Of a DNA stretch of 48,841 bases, positions 12,690-20,137 are shown in pieces (the first letter of the stretch is position 1; each line of letters begins with the position of its first letter). Position numbers and translations under genes: made by a program. Source of the stretch: Acrocarpospora corrugata (GTDB lineage: Bacteria > Actinomycetota > Actinomycetes > Streptosporangiales > Streptosporangiaceae); contig NZ_BLAD01000096.1 in assembly GCF_009687845.1 (NCBI RefSeq), forward strand, positions 1 through 48,841, written 5' to 3'. Under the pieces are notes generated by a model. That model was given only the letters and a program-made list of their open reading frames with translations, ran no database searches and was not told the DNA's origin.

Positions 12690-12887
12690 CTAGTCGGTGA
12701 CCTTGATTGCGCCGGTCGGGCAGTTGTTTTCGGCCTGCCGGGCGGCGCGGTCGCGTTCGGGCGGTGGTTCGGGTTGAAGTACGACCACCAGTCCTTCGTC
12801 GTCGTCCTGGTCGAAGAGGTCGGGTGCGATGCGGACGCAGTTTCCGGAGCCGGCGCACACGCTCCGGTCGCCCTCGACGCGGCTCAC
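12690..12887 (-). CDS. [3Fe-4S] ferredoxin partner of the P450
   Basis: A 65-residue soluble ferredoxin. GTG 12887 overlaps the P450 stop (GTGA). The cluster ligands are visible as CAGSGNC (C-x5-C) near the N-terminus and CPTGAI near the C-terminus. The position of a fourth ligand is occupied by a non-Cys residue (Gly or Ser in CAGSGNC), giving the 3Fe-4S pattern typical of actinobacterial P450 ferredoxins. Length and acidic middle (DLFDQDDDEG) fit the family. Translational coupling says it donates electrons to the adjacent P450. No ferredoxin reductase gene is nearby. Confidence 0.93.
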   Translation of the reverse strand: MSRVEGDRSVCAGSGNCVRIAPDLFDQDDDEGLVVVLQPEPPPERDRAARQAENNCPTGAIKVTD

Positions 12888-14071
12888 CACGTCACCGGCA
12901 GGCGCTGCGCGCCGAAGATGACCGCGTCCCGGAACTCGACCTCGGCGGGATCTATTGCCAGGGCGAGGTTCGGCAGCCGGGTCAGGAGTTCCTCCAGCGC
13001 GATCCGTAGTTCGGCGCGGGCCAGCGGCTGTCCGATGCACTGGTGCACGCCGAACCCGAAGGCCACGTGCGAGTGGCTGCCCCGGCTCAGGTCCAGGGCG
13101 TCGGGGTCGGTGAAGACCGTTTCGTCATGGTTGGCGCCGGCCAGCCACGCGATCACGCCCTCGCCCGCCTTGATGACCTGGCCGCCGACCTCGGTGTCGG
13201 CCGTCGCGACCCGGGGCAGACCGGTTCTGACGATGGTCAGGAAGCGCAGCAGTTCCTCCACCGCGTCCTCGATCGCCTCAGGCTTGTCCGCCAGCCGCCG
13301 TACCTCCTCGGGGTGTTGCAGGAGCATCAGGGTGCTCAGCCCGATCATGTTGGATGTCGTCTCATGTCCGGCGACGAGCAGCAGCATGGACATGCCGATC
13401 AGCTCGTCGGCGGTCATCTCGCCGGTGGCCACCCGCTCGGCGGCGAGCCGGCTGACCAGGTCCTCGCCGCCCTCCCGCTGCTTGGCCGCGACCAGTTTGG
13501 CCAGGTAGCCGAGAAGATCGTCGCGGGCCGCCCGCGCCGCCTCGATGGGGGTCGCCCAGGCCAGCATGGTCCGGCTGCGCTCCTGGAAAAACCCATGATC
13601 GGTGTACGGCACCCCGAGCAGATGGCAGATCACCATCGACGGCACCGGCAGCGCGAACCACTTGATCAGATCCGCGGGCGCCCCGGACGCCCGCATGGCG
13701 TCGAGCGCGCCGACCACCGTGTCCCTGATCAGCGGCTCCAGCAACCGGACATGCCTGATCATGAACTCGGGCGTGAGCATGCGCCGGAAATGGGCGTGGT
13801 CGGCCCCGTCCATCCGGATGAACATGCCCGGCAGCGGGCTGACCTCCGACGGCGGGATAGGCCGGATCGCCGGAAAGCCCGGCTTGGTGAGGTTGCTGGA
13901 GAAGTCGGCGCTGCGCAGCACCTGCCGGACGTCCTCGTGCCGGGTGACCAGCCAGGCGACCTGCCCGGTGGGGAGCTCGACCTGGCCGATCCCGTCCGGG
14001 AACGGGAACCTGGGCGGGATCAGCGGGTCCCGGTCCTGCGGGCGGAACGGAAACCGCGGCATGTCGTTCAT
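12884..14071 (-). CDS. Cytochrome P450 (CYP)
   Basis: A 395-residue soluble class I cytochrome P450. ATG 14071 has GGAGG 5 bases upstream; the longer open frame beyond it is antisense to the DUF1275 gene. The I-helix oxygen-binding motif AGHETT is at 234-239, ExxR at Glu273-Arg276 (ELLR), and the heme loop FGFGVHQCIG has the thiolate ligand at Cys345. The N-terminal half contains FIRMDGADHAHFRRML, the usual C-helix W/H-x-x-x-R heme-propionate region with His. The substrate is unknown, and no biosynthetic cluster surrounds it. It forms a two-gene operon with the ferredoxin. Confidence 0.97.
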   Translation of the reverse strand: MNDMPRFPFRPQDRDPLIPPRFPFPDGIGQVELPTGQVAWLVTRHEDVRQVLRSADFSSNLTKPGFPAIRPIPPSEVSPLPGMFIRMDGADHAHFRRMLTPEFMIRHVRLLEPLIRDTVVGALDAMRASGAPADLIKWFALPVPSMVICHLLGVPYTDHGFFQERSRTMLAWATPIEAARAARDDLLGYLAKLVAAKQREGGEDLVSRLAAERVATGEMTADELIGMSMLLLVAGHETTSNMIGLSTLMLLQHPEEVRRLADKPEAIEDAVEELLRFLTIVRTGLPRVATADTEVGGQVIKAGEGVIAWLAGANHDETVFTDPDALDLSRGSHSHVAFGFGVHQCIGQPLARAELRIALEELLTRLPNLALAIDPAEVEFRDAVIFGAQRLPVTW

Positions 14072-14137
14072 AGATCCTCCGATGTGGATGTACTCGGGGG
14101 GTCTTGAGTTCCACGGTCTCATGGGCCGCCCGGGGGT

Positions 14138-14791
14138 ATGCAAGCGAGGTCGCCCGGGAATCTGATCATCGTGCCCGACCGGATGCTGAAGTCTGCGATC
14201 TTGACGCTCACGGTGGTGAGCGGGCTGGTCGACGCGGTCAGTTTTCTGGGGCTGGGCAGCGTGTTCTGTTCGGCGATCACCGGCAACATCGTGCTGCTGG
14301 GCCTGGCGCTGGGGGGCGCGTCCGGGTTCGCGGTCTGGCCGCATTTCGTGGCGCTGGCGGCGTATGTGGCCGGGGCGGTGGCGGGCGCGTTCCTCGGGCG
14401 GGCCGGGCCGGGGTGGCTGCGGGCCGCGCTGGCTGTGGAGGCGGTGCTGCTGGCTTCGGCCACGGTGATGGCGTTCGCGGGCGTCTCCGCGTACGCGTTG
14501 ATCGTGGTGCTGGCGTTCGCGATGGGCATCCGGAATCTGACGACCCGCCGCCTCGGCGTACCCAACCTGACCAGCACCACGGTGATGACCACGACGGTGA
14601 CCTCCATGATCGCGGGGCTGCCGCTGATGGGCGGGCATGATCCGCATGTCGGGCGGCTGGCGGCGTCCGTGGTCGCGCTGATCTGCGGCGTGGTCGCGGG
14701 CGGCTGGCTGGTCGTCCATCACGGGATCGCCTGGCCGCTGGCGATCGGCACGGTTCCGGTGGTCCTGCTGGCGGTCATTGCGATCAAGTAG
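14138..14791 (+). CDS. DUF1275 (YoaK-like) integral membrane protein
   Basis: A 217-residue protein with about six hydrophobic helices. The family hallmark is the first helix, LTVVSGLVDAVSFLGLGSVF, followed by CSAITGNIVLLGLAL (the F-x-x-x-x-T-G-N element) and, later, NLTTRRLGVPNLTSTTVMTT (the N-x-x-T-G/S-x-x-T element). Transport or another function has not been established for the family. GTG 14171 is an alternative start. The gene is divergent from the P450 (66 bases) and ends one base before the convergent sigma-hydrolase gene. Confidence 0.9.
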   Translation: MQARSPGNLIIVPDRMLKSAILTLTVVSGLVDAVSFLGLGSVFCSAITGNIVLLGLALGGASGFAVWPHFVALAAYVAGAVAGAFLGRAGPGWLRAALAVEAVLLASATVMAFAGVSAYALIVVLAFAMGIRNLTTRRLGVPNLTSTTVMTTTVTSMIAGLPLMGGHDPHVGRLAASVVALICGVVAGGWLVVHHGIAWPLAIGTVPVVLLAVIAIK

Positions 14792-14792
14792 T

Positions 14793-16586
14793 TCAGCTGG
14801 CTTCCTGGAAGGCCTTTCCGGACTCCGTGGCCGAGCCGTCCTCGTGGAACAGGCCGCTGCCGGGTTTCGACTTCGAGGCCGGCAGGCCGAACCAGGCGTA
14901 GCGGTGCACGTAGGGGAGGGTGGCCAGCATTTTCGTGGAGGCGGTCAGGAAGGCGGCCTGCTCGGCGTCGGACGCGTACGTGGCGCCGTTGCTGAAGTCG
15001 ATCAGTGCGTATTCGGTCAGCCAGATGGGCTTGCCGTAGCGTTTGTGGACCGCCGCCAGGTAGGACTTCAGGTGCGAGACCGCCGGCTGGGTCCGGAAGT
15101 CCGACCCGTACCAGTGCAGCGTGATGAAATCGACCCGGTAGTCCCTGGCCTGCGCGCCCTTCATGAAACGGTCGAGCCAGCTCCCCGGCTGGTCCCCGCC
15201 GAACGCGACACCGGGACTGCCGAGAACGCGACCGGCCTCCATCAGCTTCGGCCAGTGCGACAGCGCCTCCTCGACCGTCATGTTCGCCTGCGCGGCCAGG
15301 TCGGGTTCGTTGAAACTCAGCAGATAGGGCCCGGCGCTCTTGGCCTCGGCCAGCGCCTGCGGGGTGACGTTCTCGGCGGCCCTGATCATCGGAATGAACC
15401 GGGTGTTCTTCGGGGTGTCGATCCCGTGGTGATGGCTGGCCCACGTGTAGTACCAGCTGGCCTTGGCCTGGGCCAGGCCCTGGCTGACGTTGGGCGCGTT
15501 CCAGACCGCCACCCCCTTCTTGTCCGACGCCGCGACCACCACCGGATCGGGTTCGGGCACCGGCGCCACCCGGTCGAGGGTGGGGGACGGCCGGGTCGGG
15601 ACGAACGTGGGCGCGGCCGAGGTGGTGATGGCCTGCGCCGGCGGTGACTCCTTCGGCGGCGGGGGCATGAGCTGGGTGATCACCAGCGTGCTGATCGCGA
15701 TGGTGGCGACCCCGGCGGCGCCGGCGATGGCGGCCTTGCCCCCCGCGCTCAGGGTGTGCGCGGCGACGGTGGCGATCTCGATCGACGGCGGCGAGGTGAG
15801 CAGGGCGTAACCGATTGGAATCGGGATGAGCGGCAGCCCGATGAGCAGCCGATCCAGCGGGATGAGTCCCTTCGTGTGCGGGGTGCAGTTCCGGCAGTCG
15901 CGGATATGCCGGGCGAAGCGCTTTCGCCACAGCGGCGTCGGAAGCGCGTCCCACTCCCAGGTGATCTCCCGCAGTTCCGCGCAGGTCGCCGCGTTCTGCA
16001 ACGCCCGGACGACCATGTGCGCGGTCTGCACCTGCTCCTTCATCCGCTGCACCCGCACGGCCGCGTGCCGTGGCGACAACCCCAGCGCCCCCGCCAGGTC
16101 GGCCCGCCCGAGTTCGCCGGTCTCCTCCAGCCACCACAGCGCCAGCAGCGCCCGGTCGTCGTTGTCCAGCCACCGGGTGGCCTCGGCGACCTCACGCCGC
16201 TGGTCGGTGAGGCCGAGCTGGAGGATCGTCACCATGGCGAAATCGGAGGCCGGGTCCGGCATCTCCGTCGCGGTGTCCAGGTCGGCCGTGCGGTGGTTCT
16301 CCGACCGCCGGTCCTGCTCGTGGTCCCGCACCTGCCGTACCGCGATGGCCACCAGCCACGACCGGTACGCCGAAAGGTCGCGAAGCCCCGGCAACCCGCG
16401 GACCACCCGGATCAGGGTCTCCTGCACCACATCGTCCACGTCCGTGTGCCCGTTCAGGGCCCGCCCGACGATGTTGTAGAGCAGGGGCAGCGAGTCGGCG
16501 ACCAGGGCGTCCAGGGCGCGCTGGTCCCCGTTCCGGGCGGCGGCCACCAGCGCCGTGTCCGGCCCGCTCCTGAGTTGACTCGCCAT
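14793..16586 (-). CDS. ECF-type sigma factor fused to zinc finger, membrane segment and extracellular glycosyl hydrolase
   Basis: One 597-residue polypeptide. Residues about 27-95 are sigma region 2 (DVDDVVQETLIRVVRGLPGL; SAYRSWLVAIAVRQ) and about 130-195 are region 4 (GELGRADLAGALGLSPRHAA). Next comes an anti-sigma-like H-x3-C-x2-C finger (His227, Cys231, Cys234). A hydrophobic stretch at about 282-306 is a probable membrane helix, and a Pro/Thr-rich linker spans about 307-350. The C-terminal domain resembles Asl1/GH128 beta-glucanases, with FNEPD (Glu427, probable acid/base) and WLTEY (Glu525, probable nucleophile). ATG 16586 follows a GGGCGGGGG stretch; in-frame codons extend further upstream. 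Topology puts the sigma factor inside and the hydrolase outside. Membrane-tethered sigma fusions are known in actinobacteria; that this one senses glucan, and how sigma is released, are inferences. Confidence 0.93.
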   Translation of the reverse strand: MASQLRSGPDTALVAAARNGDQRALDALVADSLPLLYNIVGRALNGHTDVDDVVQETLIRVVRGLPGLRDLSAYRSWLVAIAVRQVRDHEQDRRSENHRTADLDTATEMPDPASDFAMVTILQLGLTDQRREVAEATRWLDNDDRALLALWWLEETGELGRADLAGALGLSPRHAAVRVQRMKEQVQTAHMVVRALQNAATCAELREITWEWDALPTPLWRKRFARHIRDCRNCTPHTKGLIPLDRLLIGLPLIPIPIGYALLTSPPSIEIATVAAHTLSAGGKAAIAGAAGVATIAISTLVITQLMPPPPKESPPAQAITTSAAPTFVPTRPSPTLDRVAPVPEPDPVVVAASDKKGVAVWNAPNVSQGLAQAKASWYYTWASHHHGIDTPKNTRFIPMIRAAENVTPQALAEAKSAGPYLLSFNEPDLAAQANMTVEEALSHWPKLMEAGRVLGSPGVAFGGDQPGSWLDRFMKGAQARDYRVDFITLHWYGSDFRTQPAVSHLKSYLAAVHKRYGKPIWLTEYALIDFSNGATYASDAEQAAFLTASTKMLATLPYVHRYAWFGLPASKSKPGSGLFHEDGSATESGKAFQEAS

Positions 16587-16644
16587 CAGCCCCCGCCCTC
16601 GTCGGCTTCCGTCATCCAGGAGACCGTCCCGGAACAGCCCAGAT

Positions 16645-16667
16645 AACAAATTTTCGGAATTTTTGTT
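16645..16667. promoter_or_regulatory. AT-rich imperfect 23-bp palindrome in divergent promoter region
   Basis: The pattern is AACAAA-NN-TTC-G-GAA-NN-TTTGTT, an inverted repeat centred on 16656 with two mismatched positions per arm. It is a conspicuous AT island in GC-rich DNA, placed between the sigma-hydrolase gene and the secreted CBM32-DUF1996 gene. A GGAAC sequence, the ECF -35 element type, occurs at 16631-16635 on the plus strand. Operator or promoter function is inferred. Confidence 0.4.
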
Positions 16668-16761
16668 GTCCGGCGCTCCCGCCGGGGTCTCCCAGTACAA
16701 GGGGCGAAGGCCTCATACCCCAACATCCCTCAACTCCCTCGTACAAAGGACCTCATCAGTA

Positions 16762-18168
16762 ATGAGAGAGACCAGTACCAGAGTTTCCCGCCTCGCGCTG
16801 GGGGCTGTCCTCGGCGCCTGCCTGATGAACGGGGTCAGCCCGGCCAACGCGGCCGAAGTGCCACTGTCCCAGCAGCGCCTCGTCGCTGCCTCGTCGGCCG
16901 AGCGTGGCGACCTCTCGCCCTCGGCGGCGGTGGACGGCAAGACCAGCACGCGCTGGTCCAGCAAGTTCAGCGACCCCCAGTGGCTCCAGGTGGATCTCGG
17001 CTCGGTACGGGCGATCAAGAAGATCGTGATCAACTGGGAGCACGCGTACGCCAGCGCGTACACGATCCAGGTCTCTGACGGCAGCGGCGAGTGGGAGACC
17101 GTGCGGAGCGCCGCCGGCATCGACGGCGTGCAGACCCTGAACCTCTCCACCAGCGGCCGCTACGTCCGGCTGCACGCCACCAAGCGCGCCACCCAGTGGG
17201 GCGTCTCGCTCTGGGAGTTCCAGGTCTTCGGCACCGCGGGGACGACCACCCCCAGCCCGACCCCGAGCCCCAAGCCCAGCGCCACCCCCACCCCGACGAA
17301 GCCGGCGACCACCCCGACCCCCACCCCCACCGCGCCCAAGCCGACCCCGACGCCGACCACGTCCAACCCGACGGGTGGCGACCTGCCGCGCGGTCCGGTT
17401 CCGCCGGGCGCGGTGCGCGTCGCGGAGTTCGTCGCGGAGTGCCCGTTCACGCACCGCCTGCCCGACGACCCGATCGTGATGCCGGGCCTGCCGGGCGGCT
17501 CGCACATGCACAGCTTCATGGGCAACAAGACCACCAACGCCGGCACCAACCTGGGCAGCCTGCTCAAGGGCGGCACCACCTGCGAGCCTGACGTCGACCT
17601 GTCCTCCTACTGGGTGCCGACCCTGTACAACGGCGACACTCCGGTCGAGCCCAGCAGCGGCACCTTCTACTACCTGGGCGAAGGCGTACGCGAAGAGCTG
17701 GCCGCGCAGACCCGCTCGTTCCCGCTCGGCCTGCGGGTCGTGGCGGGCAACGCCAAGGCCACCGGCGCCGACAGCACGAGCAGCGCGCGCTGGTCCTGCC
17801 TGCACGCCGGGCACGTGGGCGCGTCCAAGAACTTCGTGAACTGCCCGGCCGGCACCAAGCTGGAGACCTACCTGGACTTCCCGCACTGCTGGAACGGCAA
17901 GGACCTGGACTCGCCCGACCACAAGAGCCACATGTCCTACCCGTCCGGCAACGGCTGCCCGGCGACCCACCCCGTCGTCGTGCCGAAGCTGCGCATGGTG
18001 CTCCGCTACACGATCAACGGGGACCCGGCCGCGTTCCGGCTCTCCTCCGGACCCGGATACACGATGCACGGCGACTTCTTCAATGCCTGGCCCGAGGCTG
18101 AGCTGGAGCGACGCGTTCGCGACTGCATCCGGCCGAAGGTCAAATGCGGCCCGGACGGAACAGCCTGA
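16762..18168 (+). CDS. Secreted F5/8C (CBM32-like)-DUF1996 protein
   Basis: A 468-residue exported protein. ATG 16762 has AAAGGA 11 bases upstream. The signal peptide ends near residue 31 (LMNGVSPANAA). Residues about 40-165 form a discoidin/F5-8C carbohydrate-binding domain (SAAVDGKTSTRWSSKFSDPQ; WLQVDLGSVRAIKKIVINW; RYVRLHATKR). A Pro/Thr repeat linker spans about 168-220. The rest is DUF1996, with HMHSFMGN, TCEPDVDLSSYWVPTLYNG and the C-terminal HGDFFNAW; its conserved His residues suggest a metal or catalytic site, but the function is unknown. It is divergent from the sigma-hydrolase gene and is its most obvious candidate target. Confidence 0.95.
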   Translation: MRETSTRVSRLALGAVLGACLMNGVSPANAAEVPLSQQRLVAASSAERGDLSPSAAVDGKTSTRWSSKFSDPQWLQVDLGSVRAIKKIVINWEHAYASAYTIQVSDGSGEWETVRSAAGIDGVQTLNLSTSGRYVRLHATKRATQWGVSLWEFQVFGTAGTTTPSPTPSPKPSATPTPTKPATTPTPTPTAPKPTPTPTTSNPTGGDLPRGPVPPGAVRVAEFVAECPFTHRLPDDPIVMPGLPGGSHMHSFMGNKTTNAGTNLGSLLKGGTTCEPDVDLSSYWVPTLYNGDTPVEPSSGTFYYLGEGVREELAAQTRSFPLGLRVVAGNAKATGADSTSSARWSCLHAGHVGASKNFVNCPAGTKLETYLDFPHCWNGKDLDSPDHKSHMSYPSGNGCPATHPVVVPKLRMVLRYTINGDPAAFRLSSGPGYTMHGDFFNAWPEAELERRVRDCIRPKVKCGPDGTA

Positions 18169-18186
18169 CCCGTCCGCGTGCGGCGG

Positions 18187-18206
18187 GACCCGGGCGCCGC
18201 CGGGTC
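18187..18206 (+). terminator. GC hairpin after the DUF1996 gene
   Basis: GACCCGG (18187-18193), a 6-base loop, then CCGGGTC (18200-18206), 18 bases after the stop codon, without a T-run. The downstream gene starts only 31 bases later, so it may attenuate rather than fully terminate. Confidence 0.35.
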
Positions 18207-18236
18207 TCGCCGCCGGCCTTATCAACAGGGGTGTAG

Positions 18237-18776
18237 ATGAGAGTCGCAGCCATCGGATTGATCACCGCCATGCTGGTGGCGGGCTGCGCGCGGCCGGAAA
18301 CGCCGCCCGCGGTGGCGGAACCGGTCGCCGCGAGCACGTTCAACGCGACCGACGTCGCCTGGTTGCAGCTGCTCATCCCGATGACCGAGCAGGCCCTGGT
18401 GCTGATCGAGTCAGTGCCGGAGCACACCGCGAACCCGCAGGTCATCCAGCTCGCGACGGCGATGAACGGCGAACACCGGGAGCAGCTGACCCGGCTGCGC
18501 GCCCTGCTCGGCCGGGCCGGAGTGCCCGAGACCGATATCCACGACGGTCACGACATTCCCGGCATCGTCACTCCGGACGACCTGCTCATCCTCACCAAGA
18601 CCAGAGACGCCACCTTCGACCGCCTCTTCGCCGAACACGTCGGGGACTACCTCCGGCAGTCCGTCCTGGTGGCCAAGGGCGAGCAGGACTCCGGCGCCGA
18701 CCGGGAGACCAAGGCCTTCGCGCAGACCATGTCGCAGGCCCGCACCGGCGAACTGACCCGGCTCGGCGCACGATGA
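18237..18776 (+). CDS. DUF305 lipoprotein
   Basis: A 179-residue exported lipoprotein with lipobox LVAGC at the end of a short signal peptide (lipidated Cys at about residue 17). The mature part is a helical, ferritin-like DUF305 domain (ATDVAWLQLLIPMTEQALVLIE; TAMNGEHREQLTRLRALL). The family's usual paired His in the first helix (M-I-P-H-H-x-Q-A) is here MT, so one presumed metal site is missing. It overlaps the flavocytochrome gene by ATGA, implying a joint role at the outer face of the membrane, perhaps in metal handling. The reaction is not assigned. Confidence 0.9.
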   Translation: MRVAAIGLITAMLVAGCARPETPPAVAEPVAASTFNATDVAWLQLLIPMTEQALVLIESVPEHTANPQVIQLATAMNGEHREQLTRLRALLGRAGVPETDIHDGHDIPGIVTPDDLLILTKTRDATFDRLFAEHVGDYLRQSVLVAKGEQDSGADRETKAFAQTMSQARTGELTRLGAR

Positions 18777-20137
18777 CCCTCACCGAGCCCAAGATCTCCG
18801 CGCCGACGAAGCGAAAGCGCCGCCCGACACCCCCTCGCCCGGTCTTCCCCTGGCAGGCGAACCCCGGTGTCGTGCTGACGCTGATCTCCGTCGGCGCGGT
18901 TGCCGCGACCGCCCGGTGCTGGGCAGACCTTTCGTCCGTCGTGGGGGCGGTCGACTGGTTCGCCTGGGCCGGGCGGCTCTCGGGCCTGCTGGCCGGGTAC
19001 GCGTGCGCCATCCTGCTCGGCCTGATGGCCAGGATGCCCTTCCTCGACCGGGGCGTCGGCACCGACCGGCTGGCCCGCTGGCACGCGCTCGGCGGACGCT
19101 GGACGATCATCCTCTCGGTCGCCCACATGGTGTTCGTCGTCGCCGCGCACAGCGCGGAAGCCGGTCTGCTCACCGGCACGGCGCGCCTGCTGACCGACGG
19201 CGAGGGCATCTGGGAGGCGACACTCGGGCTGGCCCTGCTGATCGGCGTGGGCGTCGTGTCGGCGCGCGGCATCAGACGGCTGATGCGCTACGAGATCTGG
19301 CACTACCTGCATTTCTTCACCTATGTCGCGGTGTTCGCGGCCTTCTCCCACCAGCTCACCGGCCCCGACTTCGCCGGCGGCGGCCTGGCCCGCCTGCTCT
19401 GGCTGGCCCTCTACCTGAGCGTCAGCGCGGCCCTGCTCTGGTGCCGCTTCCTCAGCCCGGTACGGCAGGCCCTCCGCCACCGCCTCCGCATCGTCGAGAC
19501 CCGATGGGAGTCCGCCAGTGTGATCTCGGTCTACCTGTCCGGGACACACCTCGACGACCTGCGCGCGGAACCCGGGCAGTTCTTCCGCTGGCGCTTCCTC
19601 GCGCCCGGAATGTGGTGGACGGCGAACCCGTACTCGCTGTCGGCGCCCGTCAACCCGCGCTACCTCCGGATCACCGTCAAGGTCATCGGCGACCACAGCC
19701 GCGCGCTCTCCCGGCTACGCCCGGGCACCCGGGTCGTGGCCGAAGGCCCGTACGGCGCGCTCACGGCCGCCCGCAGACGCAACGCCCGAGTCCTGCTGAT
19801 CGGCGGCGGAGTCGGCATAAGCCCGCTGCGCACACTCTTCGAGACCCTGCCGGGACACCTCACCCTCGTCTACATGGCCCGCCGCGACGAGGACCTCGTG
19901 CTGCGCGACGAACTCGACGCCATCGCCGCCCGCCGCGGCGCCACCGTCCTCTACACGGTCGACGAGGCCCGCGTGGTCCCGCTCACCGGCCGGGCACTCC
20001 GGGTGCTCGTCCCCGGCCTGGCCGACCACGACGTCTACATCTGCGGCCCGACCGGCATGACCACGGCCGCCAGGAACGCCCTGCGCCGCGCCGGAGTACC
20101 GGCCCGCCGGATCCACGTCGAGTGCTTCGACTTCTGA
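18773..20137 (+). CDS. Ferric-reductase-like flavocytochrome (heme membrane domain + FAD/NAD domain)
   Basis: A 454-residue membrane oxidoreductase from ATG 18773. After a basic N-terminal tail come about six hydrophobic helices of the ferric-reductase type, with candidate heme ligands in the WHALGGR/SVAHMVF and IWHYLHFF/FSHQLT segments. The C-terminal half is a ferredoxin-NADP reductase module: FAD motif NPYSLSAP (R-x-Y-S variant), nucleotide motif LLIGGGVGISPLRTLFE, and CGPTGMT before an aromatic terminus (ECFDF). Electrons would run from cytoplasmic NAD(P)H through FAD and hemes to an external acceptor. Coupling to the DUF305 lipoprotein suggests that protein or its bound metal as partner (inferred). 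Confidence 0.94.
   Translation: MTLTEPKISAPTKRKRRPTPPRPVFPWQANPGVVLTLISVGAVAATARCWADLSSVVGAVDWFAWAGRLSGLLAGYACAILLGLMARMPFLDRGVGTDRLARWHALGGRWTIILSVAHMVFVVAAHSAEAGLLTGTARLLTDGEGIWEATLGLALLIGVGVVSARGIRRLMRYEIWHYLHFFTYVAVFAAFSHQLTGPDFAGGGLARLLWLALYLSVSAALLWCRFLSPVRQALRHRLRIVETRWESASVISVYLSGTHLDDLRAEPGQFFRWRFLAPGMWWTANPYSLSAPVNPRYLRITVKVIGDHSRALSRLRPGTRVVAEGPYGALTAARRRNARVLLIGGGVGISPLRTLFETLPGHLTLVYMARRDEDLVLRDELDAIAARRGATVLYTVDEARVVPLTGRALRVLVPGLADHDVYICGPTGMTTAARNALRRAGVPARRIHVECFDF

Follow-up and report, generated by a model that had tools for sequence, protein, structure and literature searches.

A predicted single-chain beta-1,3-glucan switch in Acrocarpospora corrugata: an ECF sigma factor, a zinc anti-sigma domain, a membrane helix and a GH128 domain in one reading frame

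Sigma factors of the groups ECF48, ECF52 and ECF53 carry their own anchor, in that a sigma factor, a zinc finger, one or two transmembrane helices, a Pro-rich region and a carbohydrate module are joined in a single chain from which the sigma factor is expected to be released by proteolysis (PMC8999054). The ECF52 protein SCO4117 has this plan with a carbohydrate-binding module (PMC5826349), and some ECF52 and ECF53 proteins have predicted, unvalidated glycosyl hydrolase domains (PMC10766802, which credits Huang 2015 and Pinto 2019 for them). A sigma factor fused to its own membrane anti-sigma factor and freed by proteolysis is also found in IutY (ECF243) of Pseudomonas putida, where the signal is the siderophore aerobactin and no enzyme domain is mentioned in the available portion of the description (PMC8999054). 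In the SigI6/RsgI6 pair of Clostridium thermocellum, an autoregulated system, the extracellular sensor is of glycosyl hydrolase type and resembles a target enzyme: the GH10 domain of RsgI6 shares 57% identity with Xyn10D, and SigI6 activates the Xyn10D promoter (PMC4711584); release is carried out by RseP and ClpXP (PMC12203970).

The window examined here (the whole stretch of DNA analysed, 48,841 nt of contig NZ_BLAD01000096.1 from Acrocarpospora corrugata, Streptosporangiaceae) contains a fusion of this general kind at 14793–16586 on the reverse strand. Translation gives a single ATG frame of 597 aa plus stop, running from 16586 to 14793 with neither stop nor frameshift, as an earlier sequence-only reading had claimed; the start at 16586 is backed by a promoter-like pair at 16619–16652. 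The sigma regions 2 and 4 that had been proposed are borne out over about residues 1–190 (16017–16586, reverse strand) by Sigma70_r2 at residues 28–94 (Pfam, E 2e-10), by TIGR02937 (sigma70-ECF, NCBIfam) spanning residues 24–188 with a score above its cut-off, and by Foldseek matches of a model of residues 1–264 to ECF sigma factors; region 3 is absent, as in ECF sigma factors. About residues 191–247 (15846–16016, reverse strand) form a CHCC-type zinc anti-sigma (ZAS) domain with the ligands C202-x24-H227-x3-C231-x2-C234, and these three cysteines are the only ones in the protein. The H227-x3-C231-x2-C234 finger had been seen from the letters, whereas the likely fourth ligand, C202, had been overlooked. 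The spacing resembles that of RsrA (C11-x25-H37-x3-C41-x2-C44), which differs in being a stand-alone redox sensor of 105 aa (PMC4960319).

The remainder of the chain comprises a likely transmembrane helix at about residues 282–306 (15669–15743), a Pro/Ser/Thr-rich linker at about 307–352 (15531–15668) and a GH128 domain at about 353–597 (14796–15530), all on the reverse strand and all anticipated by the earlier reading. The P/S/T content of the linker is 48% here and averages 49% across 40 fusions of the same family, and the GH128 domain matches Glyco_hydro_cc (PF11790) at residues 362–593 (Pfam, E 9e-50) with Glu427 and Glu525 as its catalytic pair. Neither the four zinc ligands nor the two glutamates vary in any of the 40 same-family fusions or in any of the 58 rows of a named-genome set that includes the window (12 of its 57 named-genome fusion frames duplicate members of the 40), so these features are no chance match. 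Domain and residue evidence thus supports the claim that sigma factor, anti-sigma domain, membrane anchor and GH128 domain lie in one chain. By domain plan only, the protein is of ECF52/53 type, with a ZAS domain, the helix at 282–306 and 407 residues beyond residue 190 that include GH128, against extensions reaching about 400 residues in that type. Its placement beyond known ECF systems does not hold, since ECF48, ECF52 and ECF53 share the plan (PMC8999054, PMC10766802), and the fusion architecture is therefore already known. No RsgI N-terminal domain appears among the six Pfam matches at E ≤1, a set from which the HMMER filters drop most weak matches.

AlphaFold predicted the full chain with a mean pLDDT of 80.7 and a pTM of 0.47; ten-residue blocks from residue 361 onward average at least 90, and residues 263–352 fall below 50. 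The nearest solved match to the GH128 domain is provided by the structures of AmGH128_I, an endo-beta-1,3-glucanase of Amycolatopsis mediterranei (PDB 6UAQ), with a target-normalised TM-score of 0.96 and 52% identity against 6UAT. Glu427 aligns with the E102A site of 6UAT and Glu525 with the E199A/E199Q site of 6UAS and 6UFL; this fold and the aligned pair E102/E199 place the domain in GH128 subgroup I. AmGH128_I differs in being a free enzyme and in retaining a Trp where the sensor has Arg402.

A separate model of residues 1–264 (mean pLDDT 75.1, pTM 0.60) comes nearest to the sigma factors CnrH, SigW and RpoE in complex with CnrY, RsiW and NepR, respectively (TMt 0.69–0.77; 0.75–0.77 for SigW of the SigW-RsiW complex). 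Its scores against ECF sigma factors in transcription complexes are 0.28–0.43 among the matches listed, and those against the AlgU-MucA, sigmaE-RseA, SigK and BldN complexes are 0.43–0.50. As the likeness is mixed across complexes, it provides weak evidence for a sigma factor closed by its own chain, an arrangement with which the model is compatible.

Two hydrophobic stretches lie between the ZAS domain and the linker. The later one (about 282–306), which had been claimed as a membrane segment, passes the hydropathy cut-off (Kyte-Doolittle ≥1.6) in 40 of 40 fusions; the earlier, Pro-rich one (about 246–264) passes in 16 of 40, the window protein included. Were residues 242–263 to cross the membrane as well, GH128 would be cytoplasmic and would read an internal signal. 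Such a topology is permitted by the one to two helices described for proteins of this kind (PMC8999054), and for the window's fusion the early stretch has a hydropathy of 1.80, with no net charge on the loop joining the two segments. The family as a whole makes it very improbable: every one of the 40 fusions has the GH domain, yet the early stretch exceeds the cut-off in just 16 of them. The net charge of the connecting loop is positive in 30 fusions and negative in 5, the P/S/T linker comes after the later segment, and the free relatives begin with signal-peptide-like starts, as judged by eye. A single crossing, with GH128 outside, is the better reading of these sequences.

The full fusion occurs in at least 40 of 297 Streptosporangiaceae genomes, the window's own counted; this is a lower bound that omits the weakest matches and leaves partial or contig-end pieces uncounted (e.g. 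locus L072 of genome G212, which was also excluded from the GH comparison). A scan of named genomes returned at least 78 loci, with at least 57 fusion frames in at least 56 of them. Beyond the window's own family, at least 44 fusion frames were found in other named families: at least 18 each in Streptomycetaceae and Micromonosporaceae, at least four in Pseudonocardiaceae, at least two in Frankiaceae and at least one each in Actinospicaceae and Sanguibacteraceae. A Frankia metagenome-assembled genome holds a tandem pair of GH128-sigma fusion frames (L216:3596–8147). That assembly or annotation had run separate genes together is refuted by this recurrence: two of the at least 78 named loci (L242 and L245) do hold the halves as separate frames, yet at least 40 of the 297 genomes of the family have the chain unbroken, as do at least 57 frames of the named loci (12 of them shared), including the at least 44 frames elsewhere, and an artefact is hardly conceivable.

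Twenty relatives (L093–L112) share the sigma-ZAS-TM part with other C-terminal domains, namely CAP in six and AbfB in one; the rest have no recognised C-terminal domain at E 0.001, two of them being cut by contig ends. A looser form of the motif described below matches in the region scanned for six of the 20, in two cases inside the stop-to-stop frame. These relatives may sense different signals.

A promoter-like motif, GTTRTC-N16/17-GTCTCC, recurs ahead of the fusion genes and stands back to back between the window fusion and its divergent neighbour. On the reverse strand, a predicted autoregulatory promoter at 16619–16652 consists of a −35 element GTTATC (16642–16647), a 17-nt spacer and a −10 element GTCTCC (16619–16624); on the forward strand, the predicted promoter of the divergent gene at 16660–16692 consists of GTTGTC (16665–16670), a 16-nt spacer and GTCTCC (16687–16692), the −10 and −35 labels being assigned by position alone. 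A promoter had been suspected in the interval 16587–16761; the motif pair is indeed there and is coupled to the fusion across genomes, and as a predicted promoter-like pair it is probably read by this sigma factor. A consensus scan of 14000–19000 found no housekeeping promoter, and terminator-like sites in the same region number one against a shuffle mean of 1.7. With a looser pattern (GTTRTY allowed, spacer 15–18) searched within 420 nt upstream, 28 of the 40 same-family fusions have a match in the direction of the fusion, 30 in the opposite direction and 18 in both.

The strict motif (GTTRTC-N16/17-GTCTCC preceded by three A/T) is present in 39 of 40 fusion genomes, G146 being the sole exception, vs one of 40 fusion-less genomes of the same family, the latter being hand-picked controls with a weak best match (E >1e-13). 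The reversed pattern yielded no site in the fusion genomes and one in the fusion-less genomes. Within the six genera that contain both kinds, the motif is found in 13 of 13 fusion genomes and in one of 20 fusion-less genomes (Fisher p 2e-8). The one control with the motif (G115) has two sites, and an alginate-lyase-like gene (L178:2666–3934) begins 21 nt after one of them. In three fusion-less genomes (G016, G075 and G218; L090–L092), the stretch scanned at the free GH128 genes contains no copy of the motif (0/3). In other families the looser motif precedes 24 of 44 fusion frames in the fusion direction among the matches listed (Streptomycetaceae 12/18, Micromonosporaceae 11/18, Sanguibacteraceae 1/1), and none of the seven in Pseudonocardiaceae, Frankiaceae and Actinospicaceae; over the named fusions it is missing upstream in 25 of the 57 listed, including all four of Pseudonocardiaceae.

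The 9.27-Mb genome of A. corrugata contains the strict motif three times, upstream of the fusion, of its divergent neighbour and of an unlinked gene for a secreted F5/8C-GH128 protein. A loose search (GTTRTC-N15-18-GTCTCC) gives nine sites vs two for the reversed control; six of the nine were dismissed because their positions are unconvincing as promoters. The divergent predicted target (16762–18168, forward strand, 468 aa) combines F5/8C (discoidin) and DUF1996 domains by Pfam and has a signal-peptide-like start as judged by eye, and the promoter-like pair ends 69 nt upstream of its start.

Across the 39 fusion genomes there are 93 strict sites, of which 82 precede the fusion or one of the recognised glucan-theme classes: the fusion in 27 cases (one of these sites is also near a thaumatin-like frame), F5/8C-DUF1996 in 26, F5/8C-GH128 in 21, thaumatin in seven and GH64 in one. 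Target classes were assigned by BLAST to six reference stretches, a measure by which the other 11 sites have none; Pfam was run on the window DUF1996 gene, on 26 aligned frames of free GH128 genes and on ten further proteins. The strict motif was picked from regions upstream of the fusion, which makes the evidence from the 53 linked sites partly circular. This does not apply to the 40 unlinked sites, which are on another contig or over 5 kb away from the fusion. Thirty-five of these 40, spanning 21 genomes, precede F5/8C-GH128 (17), F5/8C-DUF1996 (17) or GH64 (1) genes, and at least one unlinked site of any kind is found in 24 of the 40 fusion genomes. Between the three main target classes, sites with a 16-nt spacer agree at 40–45% in the spacer and at 29–36% in the flanks; shared descent of the entire region upstream does not seem to explain the motif.

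GH64 is labelled a beta-1,3-glucanase by Pfam, and beta-1,3-glucan is the polymer on which GH64 and thaumatin-like proteins act. We know of no substrate for DUF1996; among the literature matches listed, one names DUF1996 in its title, and it concerns fungal vacuolar proteins. The predicted target classes would thus share a beta-1,3-glucan theme. GH64 and thaumatin-family genes behind the motif are seen at L171:2914–3891 and L168:3987–4973 (fusion genomes G185 and G089).

The GH128 domain of the sensor is 62% identical to that of the organism's own secreted GH128 protein (58% over a longer match). The glutamate pair is kept in 85 of 85 sensors and in 38 of 38 free GH128 domains, which rules out a degenerate pseudo-enzyme as far as the catalytic pair is concerned; the cleft is still questionable, given the Trp-to-Arg change at position 402 (W402R). 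At this position the free domains have Trp (35), His (2) or Ser (1) and never Arg, which is found in 13 of the 85 sensors, including all five of Acrocarpospora. Judged from its distance to the catalytic Glu alone, W402 may be the counterpart of W141 of CBM6E, which forms the −4 to −2 platform (PMC10956234). The change may weaken glucan binding, and it makes endo-beta-1,3-glucanase activity of the sensor domain uncertain.

In a tree of the 123 GH128 domains (85 sensors and 38 labelled free), most free domains of Streptosporangiaceae adjoin a group of sensors from the same family, and in a Micromonospora group six free domains stand beside six sensors, as if sensor and free enzyme had been derived one from the other within lineages. 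The tree requires eight changes of label between sensor and free, which is too many: the count is inflated because three of the 'free' domains (L235, L241 and L249) begin at contig ends and two (L242 and L245) belong to two-frame fusions, and the non-identical ones among these five doubtful rows remain within the 38.

The reading we favour, with a probability of roughly 0.7, is that of a single-chain, autoregulated transmembrane switch responding to beta-1,3-glucan, whose sensor mirrors a target enzyme. The cytoplasmic ECF sigma factor would be restrained by the adjoining zinc anti-sigma domain of its own chain, and the membrane helix and P/S/T linker would place GH128 outside the cell, where it would recognise beta-1,3-glucan, e.g. 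a polymer of fungal walls. Engagement of the glucan would expose the juxtamembrane part to cutting near or in the membrane, a step that we infer from SCO4117 and IutY (PMC8999054) and from RsgI (PMC12203970). For RsgI, RseP and ClpXP act, the latter reading XAA sites within the helix (PMC12203970); the window helix contains KAA and GAA, which mean little in an Ala-rich stretch. The freed, sigma-bearing N-terminus would read GTTRTC-N16/17-GTCTCC promoters, activating its own gene in positive feedback as well as the genes for the divergent F5/8C-DUF1996 and the unlinked secreted F5/8C-GH128 proteins. On the best reading, by analogy, the fusion would work like RsgI6/SigI6 of Clostridium within one chain. 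The Clostridium system differs in consisting of two proteins with an RsgI-type anti-sigma factor and in reading xylan, in contrast to one chain, a zinc ZAS domain and, by prediction, beta-1,3-glucan.

How the GH128 domain would pass on its signal divides the alternatives. The domain may have to cleave glucan, by turnover or through a covalent glycosyl-enzyme, before the sigma factor is freed; the glutamate pair, conserved in all 85 sensors and all 38 free domains with a strictness unexpected for a binder alone, speaks for such gating. Catalytic glutamates may nevertheless persist for the sake of binding, the GH10 domain of RsgI6 is reported to bind with very low activity (PMC4711584), structure entries of GH128 subgroup VII are titled oligosaccharide-binding proteins, and Trp402 is replaced by Arg in some sensors and in no free domain; we consider an obligatory cleavage unlikely. 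The RsgI6 and subgroup VII precedents, together with W402R in the window's own lineage, favour instead a GH128 domain turned glucan receptor whose occupancy drives release, although a mere receptor might be expected to lose its catalytic glutamates somewhere and none of the 85 has. We regard such a receptor as a serious possibility, a little short of even odds, and binding alone fits the evidence at least as well as gating by hydrolysis. Decidedly unlikely, in our estimate, is a working or trapped glycosidase that needs at least its first chemical step, with lineages matching sensor and enzyme by deriving one from the other; if true, the sensor would probe the polymer by means of a catalytic domain like the one that the cell goes on to secrete.

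The signal could also be a glycan of the cell's own wall or development, with the fusion acting in the manner of SCO4117, which has the identical plan and controls differentiation in Streptomyces (PMC5826349). This is improbable in view of the predicted targets, which comprise GH128, GH64, thaumatin and DUF1996 proteins and no recognised developmental genes, and of the putative SCO4117 motif taken from its description, CSGYN-17-SRHA, which is unlike GTTRTC-N16/17-GTCTCC. The fusion further differs from SCO4117 in having, in place of a carbohydrate-binding module, a GH128 domain with an intact glutamate pair. Its likeness to ECF52 and ECF53 proteins, SCO4117 among them, is one of domain plan, and the predicted targets here are beta-glucan proteins.

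Several neighbours of the fusion gene deserve mention. A cytochrome P450 gene lies at 12884–14053 on the reverse strand, and a different P450 adjoins the unlinked F5/8C-GH128 gene (L073) of the same genome. A functional link was weighed on account of this second P450 and dropped, the two being just 32% identical. A DUF1275 protein is encoded at 14138–14791 on the forward strand, convergent to the fusion gene, and 18237–20137 on the forward strand holds a DUF305/DUF4142 gene with a gene for a ferric-reductase-like flavoprotein behind it. In genus g33 (L037, L039–L042), a gene recognised by eye as DUF305-like is divergent to the fusion and lies behind the looser motif.

What is new here is the predicted regulon, the architecture being known from proteins of ECF52/53 type. 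We found no report of the GTTRTC-N16/17-GTCTCC promoter or its regulon in the open-licence literature, where GH128 and sigma factor come together in one metatranscriptome study alone and where, among the matches listed for ECF sigma with glucanase, none contains 'ECF sigma'. For this fusion, both a promoter and a three-gene regulon can be predicted in the organism's own genome, together with a target enzyme mirrored by the sensor, and the fusion suggests a way in which soil actinobacteria may notice the glucan of fungal walls.
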